From positions 1-64,000 of the forward strand of contig WLPU01000009.1 of the NCBI GenBank assembly GCA_009698615.1: 64,000 nt of DNA. Reading direction: 5' to 3'. Position 1 is the first letter of the stretch, and the number at the start of each line of letters is the position of its first letter. Below the pieces are notes generated by a model, which saw only the letters and a list, made by a program, of their open reading frames with translations, was not told the DNA's origin and did not search any database. Source of the stretch: Actinomycetota bacterium (GTDB lineage: Bacteria; Actinomycetota; Actinomycetes; Nanopelagicales; Nanopelagicaceae). Below are positions 36,312 to 41,859 of this stretch, piece after piece. Both the position numbers and the translations under genes were made by a program.

Positions 36312-37751
36312 TTGAAGGTTCTCTTTCAAGATGCGAAGAAGGGGCAACTGCTTCAGAATACGCGGATGAGTTCAGGGGGGTCCGCGGATAATCTCGGCAA
36401 TATAACTGAGTCGGAAAACTTGGTTGAGTTGAGTGAATCGGCGATTCCGCAATCTGGAGCCTCGCGCACTGCGAAAATGATTTCAATTCCGCTAGGACTT
36501 GCTGGACGAAGCGCTTATGGTTTGGGTCGCCAACTTGTGGGTCAATCAGGCAACATGGTCTTTCAAGAAATTCAAGAAAAAACAGCGGAACAAATATTTA
36601 AAGTCCTTGGTGAGCTCAAGGGCGGGGCGATGAAATTTGGCCAAGCACTTTCAGTTTTTGAAGCCGCACTTCCGGAAAACATTGCAAAGCCATACCGAGA
36701 GACACTTACTAAATTACAAGAATCCGCCCCACCGCTTCCTGTACGGGTGGTCCATAAAGTTCTTGCTAAAGAATTGGGTGAGGATTGGCGAGATCACTTT
36801 GCATTTTTTGACGACAAGGCAACAGCGTCGGCATCGATTGGACAAGTACATCGTGCTACGTGGAAAGATGGCAGAGCGGTTGCGGTCAAGATTCAATACC
36901 CGGGGGCAGCTGAGGCTTTGATATCAGATCTCAATCAAATTCAACGGTTTGCAAAAATCTTTGGCCTCTTTATGCCCGGCCTAGATATGAAACCTCTACT
37001 TGAGGAGCTGCGAGCACGCATCATTGAAGAGGTTGATTATCGCTATGAAGCACAAGCTCAAGAAACATACGCCCGGGTCTATGACGGCGATCCTGATATT
37101 GCAATTCCGAAAGTTGTTATGGCTTCAGATCGCGTCTTGGTCAGTGAATGGCTAGATGGCACGCCTTTATCTCAAATAATTGCTAACGGAACAAAGCAGC
37201 AGCGAGACAACGCTGGTATGAAACTTGCACGTTTTCATTTCACTTCACCAGATCGTGCTGGACTTCTACATGCAGATCCGCATCCAGGAAACTTTCGACT
37301 TCTCGATGATGGCCGCCTAGGAGTGCTTGATTTCGGTGCATGCAATCGTCTGCCTGATGGTTTTCCAGAACCAATGAAGAACCTTCTTAAACACGCTCTC
37401 GACGATGATGCAGTTGCGCTTTATGAAGGGTTCAAAAAAGACGGTTTTATTCTCTCTGAGGTAGATGTCGATCCTCAATTAGTCCTTGATTATTTAGTTC
37501 CACTTGTCGAACCTTTGCGTACAGAGACTTTTCAATACTCGCGTGAGTGGCTACGCGATCAAAGTGCTCGTGTCGGAGATCCTCGTAATCCGACTGCAAA
37601 AATTGGATTCCAGTTAAATCTGCCTGCTGAATACGTGCTGATACATCGTGTGACCTTAGGTACTACAGGGATATTTTGTCAGTTAGAAGCAGAGGGAAAT
37701 TTCCGAGATGAAGCACTTTCGTGGTTCCCGGAAATCTCCCCCGTGCGTTAA
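36312..37751 (+). CDS. ABC1/AarF/UbiB-family atypical kinase
   Basis: This is an ADCK/UbiB-type protein kinase-like ATPase. The 479-aa protein has the signature KxGQ motif (GGAMKFGQALSVFEAALPEN), the Ala-rich nucleotide loop ATASASIGQVHRA, the VAIK-like lysine AVAVKIQYPG, the catalytic loop GLLHADPHPGNF and the DFG site GVLDFGACNRL. Start is uncertain: TTG at 36312 directly abuts the upstream stop, while ATGs at 36366 and 36478 are also possible. The 3' end overlaps whiB7 by 4 nt. Quinone-related or membrane-lipid roles are known for the family, not shown here. Confidence 0.9.
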   Translation: MKVLFQDAKKGQLLQNTRMSSGGSADNLGNITESENLVELSESAIPQSGASRTAKMISIPLGLAGRSAYGLGRQLVGQSGNMVFQEIQEKTAEQIFKVLGELKGGAMKFGQALSVFEAALPENIAKPYRETLTKLQESAPPLPVRVVHKVLAKELGEDWRDHFAFFDDKATASASIGQVHRATWKDGRAVAVKIQYPGAAEALISDLNQIQRFAKIFGLFMPGLDMKPLLEELRARIIEEVDYRYEAQAQETYARVYDGDPDIAIPKVVMASDRVLVSEWLDGTPLSQIIANGTKQQRDNAGMKLARFHFTSPDRAGLLHADPHPGNFRLLDDGRLGVLDFGACNRLPDGFPEPMKNLLKHALDDDAVALYEGFKKDGFILSEVDVDPQLVLDYLVPLVEPLRTETFQYSREWLRDQSARVGDPRNPTAKIGFQLNLPAEYVLIHRVTLGTTGIFCQLEAEGNFRDEALSWFPEISPVR

Positions 37752-38086
37752 GCCGCATCACTCACGAGTCGTGGGCGCCCGACGGTGCGCTTACGAGCAA
37801 TGATGGAGCCGTCTTCAAAGAGCTCGCCGCCCCATACTCCACATGGCTCAAGACGCGATAACGCGGCATCAAGACATTGGGAACGCACAGGACATGCTGC
37901 GCACAATGATTTTGCAACTTCAACTTCTGATTGCTTTTCAGAGAAAAACAATTCAGGGTCAGCGTTGTGACAAGGCAAGGCGAAAGCAACATCGGAGCCA
38001 TAGGCGCCAGTTACCTCACCTAGTCCGATCATGTCGCCATCGCTGGCCCAGCCGGGTACTAATAGTTCGCTAAAGAGAACAGCCAT
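37748..38086 (-). CDS. whiB7: WhiB7-type iron-sulfur transcription factor
   Basis: WhiB proteins bind a [4Fe-4S] cluster and the sigma factor region 4 to activate promoters; WhiB7 controls intrinsic antibiotic resistance in mycobacteria and Streptomyces. The 112-aa product has four cluster cysteines (C39, C62, C65, C71 in CAACPVRSQC), the turn motif GVWGGE at 83-88, and a C-terminal AT-hook GRPR, diagnostic of WhiB7. The ATG at 38086 with GGAAGG upstream is preferred over the GTG at 38095. Its position between an ABC1 gene and uvrD2 matches whiB7 elsewhere. A 49-codon uORF and a terminator lie in its leader. Confidence 0.9.
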   Translation of the reverse strand: MAVLFSELLVPGWASDGDMIGLGEVTGAYGSDVAFALPCHNADPELFFSEKQSEVEVAKSLCAACPVRSQCLDAALSRLEPCGVWGGELFEDGSIIARKRTVGRPRLVSDAA

Positions 38087-38150
38087 TGCTCTCACCTTCC
38101 TTTTTTATCGATAGTGGTGACGGATCCGGTTGGATTCATCTGGGTAGTAG

Positions 38151-38193
38151 GGAAAAGAAAAAGGGCCCGAATCCTTGTGGATTCGTGGCCCTT
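38151..38193 (-). terminator. Intrinsic terminator/attenuator in the whiB7 leader
   Basis: On the minus strand, AAGGGCC-A-CGAATCC-ACAA-GGATTCG-GGCCCTT is followed by TTTCTTTTCCC. The stem is 14 bp with one bulge and has a U-rich tail, ending about 65 nt before the whiB7 start. Lying between the uORF stop and whiB7, it is placed to abort transcription before the gene. The 3' arm ATTCGG can alternatively pair with CCGAAT at 38203-38208. Confidence 0.85.
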
Positions 38194-38200
38194 GAGGTCC

Positions 38201-38221
38201 CAATTCGGTTTTATCGAATTG
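38201..38221 (-). promoter_or_regulatory. Hairpin over the uORF stop codon, candidate antiterminator partner
   Basis: CAATTCG-ATAAAAC-CGAATTG on the minus strand forms a 7-bp stem enclosing the uORF stop (TAA). Its 3' arm CCGAAT is exactly complementary to ATTCGG in the terminator stem, so the two structures are mutually exclusive in one configuration. A ribosome at the end of the uORF would affect the balance. Confidence 0.6.
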
Positions 38222-38360
38222 AGCTCCAAGTGGCCATCTCGCTAAATGCGGGATACCAAGCGGTGCGCTTTGCGGCACGGTTGGTTGTGGCCTTATATGA
38301 ATGTGTATGTGAATGGACAGCACAGAGCGCTATAGTGAATTTATGCGTAGATAATTGCAT
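38211..38360 (-). CDS. Upstream ORF (49 aa) in the whiB7 leader
   Basis: ATG at 38360 is preceded by a strong AAAGGAG ribosome binding site at 7 nt. The ORF encodes MQLSTHKFTIALCAVHSHTH and ends at TAA 38211-38213, inside a hairpin and 18 nt before the terminator. It is below the ORF track cut-off. Length, RBS and position match the leader ORFs reported upstream of whiB7 in other actinobacteria. The peptide is His/Thr/Ala-rich with no recognised domain; it is more likely a regulatory leader than a functional protein. I see no convincing -35/-10 pair, so the transcript start is unknown. Confidence 0.65.
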   Translation of the reverse strand: MQLSTHKFTIALCAVHSHTHSYKATTNRAAKRTAWYPAFSEMATWSSIR

Positions 38361-38449
38361 TTTCGCGCTCCTTTACATTCGAAATAGCAATCTGGTGATT
38401 GCGTTGACTAAGGGTAAAGCACGAGCTATCAATGATGCAAATCAATTAA

Positions 38450-40114
38450 CTACTCTCCCGTGAGTAAACCGGCCTCACGTAAGAATCTGCTCGGTATTTG
38501 CCTGTAACTCACATGCAGGTGCGCCTTCGCACGCGTGATGCCCACGTAAAACAAACGCCGTTCTTCATCGGCCACGGCATCATGCGTAGGCAATATTCCC
38601 TCGCTCACGCCAATGACAAATACGTTCTCCCACTCAAGACCCTTCGCCGCATGGAGTGTGGCCAGAGTCGTCACGGGCATTGTGGGGGGATTATTTTGCT
38701 CAGCACGATCCTCGAGCTCGCGCAAGAAAGTACGCAAGATTTTGGGTGAAAATGCGGGGTCAGAATCTAATTCAGCAGCTAAATGCAAGAGCGCTGTAAT
38801 GCCATCGGTGGTTGTTTGCCTAATAAACGGCTGGGCCAACGTGCGCAATTCATCGAGCCAATAGACGCCTTCGGTAGGAATAACAGATGCCTGGCGCACT
38901 CCTTTCAGAAAATCGCGAACATCTGAGCGCTCAAAGAAGCGATCGTTATTTCTTACTTGATAGGCAATTTTCGCGGCGATGCACTCGCGCTCTAAAACTT
39001 TGAGTTGGGCATTGGTTCTTGCCAAAACGCAGATCTCTTGAGGTGGGACACCGGTACTTGTGAGTTTTTGTATCTCCATTACGACTCCGCTTACTTCACT
39101 CGCCTCATCATTATATTTGGTGAGCTCTGGGCTTGTGCCATGAGAATTAATAGCAACAATTTCTTGCCCCATGGAGGCGCTTCGTAAAACACTGTTAGCG
39201 GTTGAAATGATCTCTGGTGTAGAGCGATATCCAGAAGTGAGGCGAATTACTTCGGCATCTGGAAATCTCTTTGTGAATTGATTTAAGAATATTGGAGTCG
39301 CCCCTGCAAATGAATAAATAGTTTGTGCTGGATCTCCAACCACGCAAATCTCGTGGCGTCGGCCCAGCCAGGCATTAATCAACCTTTGCTGGAGTGGAGA
39401 AACATCCTGGTATTCATCGATAGTGAAAAAGCGATATTGATCATGAATCTGCTCACGCACTTCGCGTTCCTCTTCAATCATTGCGGTGGTGAGGAGTAAT
39501 ACATCTTCAAAATCAATGGCGTGCTCTTGGCGAAGCAAACTCATATACGCTGAATACACCTGCGCTACTTGGCCTTGCGTAATGCGATTGCGAACAACTC
39601 GGTCTTTTGATTCTGCCATGTAATCCTCAGGAGCAATCTCTGAAACCTTCGCCCATTCGATTTCTGTAGCGATATCTCTTAATAATTCCCGTGATGTTGC
39701 TGGTAGCGATCCGGTTAATCCAGCACGTGCTACCGCTTCTGTAAGAAATCCGCTCTTGGATGTCAGCAAATCTGGAGTTCTACCGCCGAAAACGCTGGGC
39801 CAAAAATAGAGAAGCTGTTTGAGCGCTGCCGAGTGAATCGTGCGAGCAGCAACACTTGGCACCCCCAGCGATCGCAAACGAGCCCGCATCTCACCTGCTG
39901 CTCGCGCAGTGAAGGTCAGGGCCAATACTTTCTGAGGATTCATGACTCCAATAGCGGCGGCGTATGCGATGCGATGTGTAATAGCGCGAGTTTTTCCTGT
40001 GCCCGCCCCTGCAATAACACACACGGGTCCCCTTGTAGCCATCGCAACTTGGCGTTGCTCATCATCCAATGCTGCAAGTATTTCTTCGGCTCTGAGCTCG
40101 TTGGCTTCACTCAC
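38450..40114 (-). CDS. uvrD2: Superfamily 1A DNA helicase UvrD2-type, short form
   Basis: This 3'-5' DNA helicase carries the Walker A CVIAGAGTGKTRAITHRI, motif Ia LTFTARAAGEMR, the DEYQDV box (FTIDEYQDVSPLQQ), GDPAQTIYSFAGA, and motifs V-VI (TLHAAKGLEWENVF, RRLFYVGITRAK). It has 554 residues. Mycobacterial UvrD2 is about 700 residues with C-terminal HRDC and tetracysteine regions; those are absent here. It overlaps nudC by 4 nt and lies upstream of the whiB7 leader, as in other actinobacteria. Confidence 0.92.
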   Translation of the reverse strand: MSEANELRAEEILAALDDEQRQVAMATRGPVCVIAGAGTGKTRAITHRIAYAAAIGVMNPQKVLALTFTARAAGEMRARLRSLGVPSVAARTIHSAALKQLLYFWPSVFGGRTPDLLTSKSGFLTEAVARAGLTGSLPATSRELLRDIATEIEWAKVSEIAPEDYMAESKDRVVRNRITQGQVAQVYSAYMSLLRQEHAIDFEDVLLLTTAMIEEEREVREQIHDQYRFFTIDEYQDVSPLQQRLINAWLGRRHEICVVGDPAQTIYSFAGATPIFLNQFTKRFPDAEVIRLTSGYRSTPEIISTANSVLRSASMGQEIVAINSHGTSPELTKYNDEASEVSGVVMEIQKLTSTGVPPQEICVLARTNAQLKVLERECIAAKIAYQVRNNDRFFERSDVRDFLKGVRQASVIPTEGVYWLDELRTLAQPFIRQTTTDGITALLHLAAELDSDPAFSPKILRTFLRELEDRAEQNNPPTMPVTTLATLHAAKGLEWENVFVIGVSEGILPTHDAVADEERRLFYVGITRAKAHLHVSYRQIPSRFLREAGLLTGE

Positions 40115-41028
40115 GGACGCCAGCTCTCACCCGTATCAATTTCACTTCCATACCAATGCTCAATCATTCGGCGTGCGACGCTAATCCGTGGAGGCAAGAG
40201 CACTTCTTGGCTTGCAACTGCATCCTTCATCTCATCGCGCGTAAACCATCTAATCTCGGTGATCTCCACTCCATCTGCTCGAGCAGTTGATACATCTGAA
40301 GTAATTGCTTCAAATGCAATCATGATCGAGGCAGGAAATGGCCATGGCTGCGACCCTAAATAATGAACAGAATGAACTTTCACCCCAGATTCTTCTTCTA
40401 CTTCTCGAACAACGCATTGCTCGAAGGATTCACCTGGTTCGACAAAGCCGGCAAAAGTAGAAAACCTTTTCTCTGGCCAAATAGGTTGATGACCTAACAA
40501 AATTCGATCATTAACATCTTTGATGAGCACGATGACAGCTGGATCAGTGCGCGGATGATGCTGACTCTGATCTTGCGTACACAGCCGTGCAGCACCACCA
40601 AGGTCCACTTGGGTCGCTTCTCCGCATTTTGGGCAACGAGGATGAGCGCTATGCCAATTACTCAAGGCAATCGCATGGACAGCAAGACCGGCTTCAAGAC
40701 TTGAAAGTTGCGCACCAATCTGCCGCAGAGTGCGAAGCTGATCCTCATCATGTTCTGTTGTGTGCCAAGCAAAATAACTTTGAGAACTGCCTTGGTCAAT
40801 TCCTAAGAAATATCTCTCGCCTTCGCCAGAAATTTCAGCAGAAGTAAAAAAAATAAGTTCTGAATCATGAGAGCTCACTTGATCATTGACAATGATCAGA
40901 ACTTTTGCGCTCTGCCACAACTCTTCTAGTTTGATTGTGTCGGTGCGTAATTCGCTTGCTCGATCTACAGCACTTCTTGCCAGAATGAGATTATTCAATC
41001 TGCCTGTGTTCATCTTGGCCGCGCTCAT
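40111..41028 (-). CDS. nudC: NADH pyrophosphatase / RNA NAD-decapping Nudix hydrolase
   Basis: NudC hydrolyses NADH/NAD+ and removes NAD caps from RNA. The C-terminal half has the Nudix box GFVEPGESFEQCVVREVEEE, the NudC-specific motif SQPWPFPASIM, and a zinc site starting CPKCGEATQ that seems to lack the second CxxC (a single C follows at LCTQDQ). The track start at 41085 overlaps the divergent gene; ATG at 41028 (MSAAKMNTGRLNNLILARS) is a better match, giving 305 aa, though 41013 is possible. It overlaps uvrD2 by 4 nt. Confidence 0.92.
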   Translation of the reverse strand: MSAAKMNTGRLNNLILARSAVDRASELRTDTIKLEELWQSAKVLIIVNDQVSSHDSELIFFTSAEISGEGERYFLGIDQGSSQSYFAWHTTEHDEDQLRTLRQIGAQLSSLEAGLAVHAIALSNWHSAHPRCPKCGEATQVDLGGAARLCTQDQSQHHPRTDPAVIVLIKDVNDRILLGHQPIWPEKRFSTFAGFVEPGESFEQCVVREVEEESGVKVHSVHYLGSQPWPFPASIMIAFEAITSDVSTARADGVEITEIRWFTRDEMKDAVASQEVLLPPRISVARRMIEHWYGSEIDTGESWRP

Positions 41029-41055
41029 GATGGGCGACACTACTAGCATGACCCC

Positions 41056-41859
41056 ATGCGCCTCACCTCGTGGAATCTCCTGCACGCAATGCCTATCCCG
41101 CCCTCGCCGACCGCCAACGGGAGCGCCCTACTGGGCCGCGCAATCATGGATCTTGATAGCGATGTGATCGGCCTTCAAGAAGTTGATTACTATCTTGAGC
41201 GCTCTGGCGCTGAAAACCAAGTCGAACGTGTTGCCAAATTACTTGGAGCAAAATCATGGGCATTTGCTCCATCTGTATTGGGCTCACCCGATGCTAAGTG
41301 GCGCAAACTCTCTCGTGATGATGCCGCAATCATTACATCAGTCGACCAACCACGCACTCCTTCATACGGAATAGGTCTAGTGTCTAAAATTCCAGTTGTG
41401 TCATGGCATCGCCTCGAATTCAAAGCAGCCCCGGTTGGCATGCCGATGGTAATTCCGGAAAATGGAAAAATGAAACTTTTCTACATGCGAGATCATCCTC
41501 GTTCAGCGATTGCTGCCGTATTGGAGAATGGTTGGCTGGTGATCAACACTCATCTTTCATTTGTTCCAATCTATAGTTTCGTTCAACTTCTCGCGATCAA
41601 GCGATGGGTCAAGCGATTACCCGTCCAAGATAAAGCCAAGATCGTCGTCATGGGCGATCTCAATATTCCCGTCAGTCTTTTTGTGCGCGGAATTGCGTGG
41701 AACTCACTGGCTAAACAGAAGGGCTACCCAAGTTGGCAGCCAAAAATTCAACTCGATTACTTACTTTCACAAAAAGTAGCTAGTGAAGATGTCGTCTATG
41801 TCGAGACTGCACGCTCTGGCATAAGCGATCACTTACCGCTTAGTGTTGATATTGACTAA
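41056..41859 (+). CDS. Endonuclease/exonuclease/phosphatase-family hydrolase
   Basis: The 267-aa protein has the EEP fold motifs in order: TSWNLLHAM, DVIGLQEVDYYLERSG (catalytic Glu), WLVINTHLSF, KIVVMGDLNIPV, and SGISDHLPLSVD. It may be a phosphodiesterase acting on nucleic acid or a phosphatase on small substrates. The ATG at 41056 gives the canonical MRLTSWN start. It diverges from nudC by 27 nt and its 3' end overlaps adnB by 4 nt. In mycobacteria a different gene fills this position, so it seems a local insertion. Confidence 0.85.
   Translation: MRLTSWNLLHAMPIPPSPTANGSALLGRAIMDLDSDVIGLQEVDYYLERSGAENQVERVAKLLGAKSWAFAPSVLGSPDAKWRKLSRDDAAIITSVDQPRTPSYGIGLVSKIPVVSWHRLEFKAAPVGMPMVIPENGKMKLFYMRDHPRSAIAAVLENGWLVINTHLSFVPIYSFVQLLAIKRWVKRLPVQDKAKIVVMGDLNIPVSLFVRGIAWNSLAKQKGYPSWQPKIQLDYLLSQKVASEDVVYVETARSGISDHLPLSVDID

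Follow-up and report, generated by a model that had tools for sequence, protein, structure and literature searches.

The locus analysed here raises the question of how whiB7 is controlled in a freshwater actinobacterium of the 'acI' lineage (Nanopelagicaceae) with a low-GC genome of 1.50 Mb, and in which direction any switch in its leader would act. A first-pass annotation of the window, the whole 64,000-nucleotide stretch of DNA that was analysed, proposed that the whiB7 leader looks like a transcription attenuator coupled to a uORF. The comparative evidence supports this proposal, with an attenuator of the whiB7/wblC type, and from the sequences compared here we consider it very probable that the leader is a ribosome-mediated transcription attenuator. 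The regulated gene is as follows:

37751..38086, minus strand: whiB7, a WhiB-type Fe-S regulator with a GVWGG motif and a C-terminal AT-hook GRPR

The encoded protein matched Pfam PF02467 above the cut-off (64.0 bits, at 37826-37972), and this match, the GVWGG motif, the GRPR hook and the uvrD2, nudC and MABP-1-like neighbours identify the gene as a whiB7 orthologue. Of 151 Nanopelagicaceae genomes, 140 yielded an orthologue, as did 81 of the 83 that are of good quality. On the same strand, uvrD2 (38450-40114, a UvrD-type helicase gene) ends just upstream, and a gene for a NudC-like Nudix protein, assigned by sequence only, lies at 40111-41085. An ABC1-kinase gene (36312-37751, plus strand) is convergent with whiB7; among NCBIfam models it is most similar to the macrolide-binding ATPase MABP-1, at 470 bits and below the cut-off of 800. 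In mycobacteria, too, whiB7 is flanked by uvrD2/nudC and a MABP-1-like ABC1-kinase gene. The Shine–Dalgarno sequence of whiB7, GGAAGGTGAG, and a protein start of the form MxVLFSELLVPGW are common to the relatives, which places the start codon at ATG 38086. A GTG at 38095 was rejected as the start, falling as it does within this Shine–Dalgarno sequence, and the 3′ end of the leader is therefore 38087. In one congener (L022), stop codons occur in the whiB7 frame near the start, reflecting either sequencing error or decay.

The 5′ part of the leader contains the elements expected to start and drive its transcription:

38444..38447, minus strand: AT box (AATT of TTAATT), a putative WhiB7 autoregulation site 3 nt upstream of the -35 element
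38411..38440, minus strand: promoter conserved in the family, with -35 TTGCAT (38435-38440), an 18-nt spacer and -10 TACCCT (38411-38416)
38382..38401 (approximate), minus strand: short hairpin GCAATC-ACCA-GATTGC at the presumed transcript start, recurring in congeners

Nearly all family leaders reaching far enough upstream contain TTTAATTnnn-TTGCnn-(18)-TACCCT or near variants (38447-38411 here), and the 18-nt spacing and TANNNT are kept in those that extend to the promoter. Transcription is predicted to start at about 38404. In known target promoters the WhiB7/WblC box sits 3 nt upstream of -35 (PMC7157823). Because the conserved AT box has this same position, WhiB7 likely activates its own promoter, an autoregulatory arrangement to which sequence and conservation both point. 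A whole-genome search for a WhiB7 regulon with a strict box-plus-promoter pattern returned whiB7 itself plus chance-level matches only; the second strict-pattern match in this genome lies in the glnA region (L122), and the search gave no basis for a regulon. About 16 of 20 congeneric leaders (L002-L022) have a 5′ hairpin at the same place, with varying sequence; it is perhaps an mRNA-protecting element.

Downstream of the promoter lies the uORF:

38368..38374, minus strand: Shine–Dalgarno sequence AAAGGAG of the uORF, 7 nt upstream of its ATG
38211..38360, minus strand: uORF of 49 codons (ATG + 48 codons + TAA), encoding MQLSTHKFTIALCAVHSHTHSYKATTNRAAKRTAWYPAFSEMATWSSIR followed by the stop, conserved in the family with the stop-codon hairpin at its end
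38244..38258, minus strand: W-Y-P-A-F codons, 11-15 before the stop, marked by conservation and by the boundary in the ribosome-position scan

This is the 49-codon ORF with AAAGGAG that the first-pass annotation had reported. It is readable in nearly all of 79 distinct family leaders, with the stop-codon hairpin at its end. Across 20 congeneric leaders, the K, R, W and F of the KRTAWYPAF stretch in the peptide are invariant and Y-P-A nearly so. Codons -10 to -23 contained 22 synonymous and 18 nonsynonymous single-base differences within the genus, where 28% synonymous would be expected, and this synonymous excess indicates that selection acts on the uORF peptide and not on the RNA alone. The uORF is thus translatable, led by a Shine–Dalgarno sequence and conserved as coding sequence. 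Measured against four long genes of the window, Ala (20.7%), Thr, Ser, His, Trp and Tyr are overrepresented in the family's uORFs, and Leu, Glu and Asp are underrepresented. Of the 70 family leaders in which a promoter can be seen, 52 have a Shine–Dalgarno sequence, the type to which the window's leader belongs, and in 17 the uORF starts, with ATG or GTG, 6-9 nt after the -10 element. Such uORFs, found in several sister clades, are probably leaderless (L056, L065, L069, L071, L091, L095, L105, L106, L109, L111, L112, L113, L115, L118 and others).

Two hairpins follow, one over the end of the uORF and one before whiB7:

38197..38224, minus strand: hairpin over the uORF stop, arms 38215-38224 and 38197-38207, with UAA in the loop; the tip of the antiterminator, supported by folding and arm permutation
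38153..38193, minus strand: intrinsic terminator, arms 38179-38193 and 38161-38174, U-tail 38153-38162, supported by folding and compensatory changes

Both had been recognized in the first-pass annotation, which put the terminator 65 nt before whiB7; we correct the distance from the U-tail to the whiB7 ATG to 66 nt. The terminator has 14 bp with one bulged A, a loop ACAA, a folding energy of -23.8 kcal/mol and the tail TTTTTCTTTT. Of its base pairs, 97.5% are preserved, where slid controls gave 28-68%; three pairs show compensating changes, and the sequence is nearly invariant within the genus. These data place an intrinsic terminator between the uORF and whiB7, and in nearly all of the 79 family leaders the stop hairpin is located 50-65 nt ahead of the U-tract. 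A generic terminator scan by itself found 1 terminator with 1.0 expected and did not reach significance, and an Rfam search of the window at the gathering score returned tRNAs only, with no family match for the whiB7 leader.

The same part of the leader may offer another route to control. In a whole-leader fold, the stretch after the terminator pairs with the U-tract, which is complementary to the purine-rich Shine–Dalgarno region of whiB7 in that stretch (38087-38162, minus strand), so that control could be mainly translational, through masking of that region by the pyrimidine-rich U-tract or the leader, and not through termination. We consider this very unlikely as the main mode of control, since the U-tailed, GC-rich 14-bp terminator has conserved pairing and known whiB7 leaders terminate at such a terminator (PMC4128351). 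It is conceivable from the fold that the pairing of the U-tract with the Shine–Dalgarno region acts as a further translational brake on whiB7.

Control by transcription attenuation requires a fold that competes with the terminator. Two arms for such an antiterminator were found:

38226..38236, minus strand: 5′ arm within the uORF (TGGCCACTTGG), supported by pairing in the nascent fold and covariation between clades
38186..38195, minus strand: 3′ arm (TCAAGGGCCA), overlapping the terminator 5′ arm, supported by the nascent fold and covariation

When folded as far as the terminator loop, the nascent RNA forms a single composite hairpin of -25.6 kcal/mol, in which UGGCC(A)CUUGG (38236-38226) pairs with UCAAGGGCCA (38195-38186) and the stop-codon hairpin forms the tip. 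No fold is lower in energy than this antiterminator before transcription reaches 38161, the last base of the terminator 3′ arm. While it holds, the terminator's lower, GC-rich half beside the U-tract stays open. At full length, the antiterminator with the upper terminator hairpin reaches -35.6 kcal/mol and the terminator with the stop hairpin -36.3 kcal/mol; given this small energetic advantage of the terminator state, the switch would have to act kinetically.

Mere pairing is weak evidence, because a GC-rich arm easily finds a chance partner. The uORF arm held at least five terminator-arm bases in 79 of 79 leaders early and 73 of 79 late, and shuffled arms did so in 79% and 48%, respectively. 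Synonymous recoding of the window's uORF arm did not significantly weaken the antiterminator (z -0.76), so the case for it rests on comparison. When partners were swapped among 23 clades, the antiterminator scored -16.64 with its own partners and -14.33 (sd 0.54) with permuted ones, and none of 2,000 permutations was as good, although clade permutations remove relatedness only partly; the stop hairpin and the terminator likewise gave 0/2000. With the register made explicit, double changes are seen at pair 10 (A-T, C-G or T-A) and at pair 4 (T-A or C-G). The Planktophila-type GAGGCC:GGCCTC is matched by GCGG:CCGC elsewhere, and CTTGG:CCAAG by CCTGG:CCAGG. Covariation was assessed with our own alignment and the swap tests, as MAFFT shifts the register between clades (bulge versus internal loop). 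The comparison of leaders among relatives that the first-pass annotation had suggested has thus found the uORF and both hairpins conserved, together with an antiterminator that permutation does not reproduce.

The alternative fold proposed in that annotation was a different one, in which CCGAAT after the stop codon (38203-38208) would pair with ATTCGG (38167-38172) in the 3′ arm of the terminator and so serve as the antiterminator. The 6-nt complement does exist in this sequence. Across the 23 clades, however, own partners gave -4.03 kcal/mol and permuted partners -4.38 kcal/mol, with 1,789 of 2,000 permutations as good, and in clades whose terminator 3′ arm differs (GGATTTGGAGGTCC, GGATGAGCGGTCC) the complement is lost and the stop hairpin kept. 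The complementarity stands, but as an alternative fold it is unconserved, and we regard its role as the antiterminator as exceedingly improbable. The composite hairpin formed with the uORF arm is the antiterminator that we consider further.

The uORF, the stop hairpin and the terminator all recur in approximately 75 Nanopelagicaceae whiB7 leaders and class-wide. In each of 21 congeneric genomes, a covariance model built from the family leaders gave one strong match (E 2.6e-21 to 3.5e-26), at the leader upstream of whiB7. Searching this genome with the model revealed no second place comparable to the whiB7 leader. One congener contains a second, partial match (G001:C17:12216-12282, E 4e-7) away from the whiB7 leader. 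Relatives outside the family, with genomes of 2-10 Mb, keep the order of Shine–Dalgarno sequence, uORF, stop hairpin and terminator in most cases, with ...TGGAG... near the uORF end.

These data also bear on whether the terminator serves only to end the nudC-uvrD2 transcript arriving from upstream, with the short ORF playing no part. Transcripts of uvrD2, which ends at 38450 on the same strand, would indeed also reach the terminator of the whiB7 leader. A dedicated, conserved promoter between uvrD2 and the uORF, the selection on the uORF peptide, the covariation of the antiterminator and the tie of the attenuator element to whiB7 in every congener all speak against this reading; we judge it highly improbable.

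The geometry of the attenuator also bears on its direction, which the first-pass annotation had held could not be determined from sequence alone. We placed a ribosome at every uORF codon, its footprint reaching at the leading edge 12 nt beyond the first A-site base. The antiterminator was blocked in almost all leaders when 0-8 codons separated the A site from the stop; it was partly available at 9-11 codons and available from 12 on, a boundary that may shift by one or two codons because the footprint size is assumed. This on/off boundary coincides with the W-Y-P-A-F codons. We do not count the position scan by itself as proof of the antiterminator, as shuffled arms often pair too; structure, geometry and covariation argue that antiterminator and terminator are mutually exclusive and that full translation of the uORF blocks the former. 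Its geometry, with the position scan, gives the direction: a finished uORF would mean termination, and an upstream stall or no translation would mean read-through.

We infer the following course of termination and read-through, and the signals that would induce the switch. RNA polymerase would initiate near 38404, at a promoter probably activated by WhiB7, and a ribosome would follow on the 49-codon uORF. On reaching the stop, this ribosome would cover the last uORF codons, which form the antiterminator 5′ arm (...GGCC-A-CTTGG...); with the antiterminator prevented, the 14-bp terminator would form and the transcript would end ahead of whiB7. If the uORF is untranslated, or if a ribosome stalls at least about 12 codons before the stop (through a ribosome-targeting drug or a lack of charged tRNA), the arm would stay free and could capture the base of the terminator 5′ arm as it emerges, the stop-codon hairpin forming the tip. 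Only the upper terminator hairpin would then fold, away from the U-tract, and transcription would read through into whiB7.

In sister clades, the counterparts of WYPAF at the decision boundary are FYAAFYA or FAAY. It is possible, though we hold it only tentatively and think it rather doubtful, that the uORF is a tuned sensor, in which this conserved aromatic/alanine motif occupies the last stall positions that permit read-through. Under such a scheme whiB7 would respond, beyond antibiotics, to shortage of alanine or aromatic aminoacyl-tRNAs or to peptide-specific arrest, and about a quarter of the family would have swapped Shine–Dalgarno-led for leaderless uORF initiation with the switch unchanged. 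In passages of PMC13236596 and PMC11550727 that cite Poulton 2024, alanine starvation is described as activating whiB7 in mycobacteria.

The same architecture and direction have been reported for mycobacteria and Streptomyces (PMC11550727, PMC4128351, PMC13236596, PMC13393426). As here, the mycobacterial whiB7 attenuator (M. tuberculosis, M. smegmatis, M. bovis and M. marinum) has a Shine–Dalgarno-led uORF and a U-tailed terminator between the uORF and whiB7, its transcript starts roughly 300-350 nt upstream and a stalled uORF leads to read-through (PMC4128351, PMC13236596, PMC13393426). Unlike in mycobacteria, the genome here is a low-GC, freshwater one of 1.5 Mb, the uORF peptide differs (WYPAF...TWSSIR) and the antiterminator is a compact composite with the stop-codon hairpin as its tip. 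The Streptomyces wblC attenuator is also similar: relatives of family f19 (7-10 Mb, probably Streptomyces) have, in the same order, a Shine–Dalgarno sequence, a long uORF ending ...PWSDPA before its stop, a stop hairpin, an CCCTGGAG:CTTCAGGG antiterminator and a GC-rich terminator, and the WblC box of Streptomyces wblC lies 3 nt upstream of -35 (PMC7157823), as in the whiB7 leader here. The uORF has 49 codons here, whereas that of wblC has about 90-110, and the two resemble each other in sequence only in the ...TGGAG... arm. In the trp and ilvB1NC amino-acid attenuators, too, the choice between terminator and antiterminator depends on where the ribosome stands on a leader ORF (ilvB1: PMC13236596); unlike in those systems, the target here is a stress regulator and the uORF has no run of one regulatory codon.

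The kind of switch is therefore already known, and the Nanopelagicaceae would be a new lineage for the whiB7 attenuator. The outcome is a model with a defined direction that can be tested base by base, and the antiterminator located by covariation and the uORF decision point are transferable to better-studied relatives. A translation-stress switch of pathogens and antibiotic producers would thus be kept in a family that belongs to the most abundant freshwater bacteria with reduced genomes and, if the uORF is indeed a tuned sensor, nutrient stress may be a larger part of the role of whiB7 in these planktonic bacteria than drug defence.
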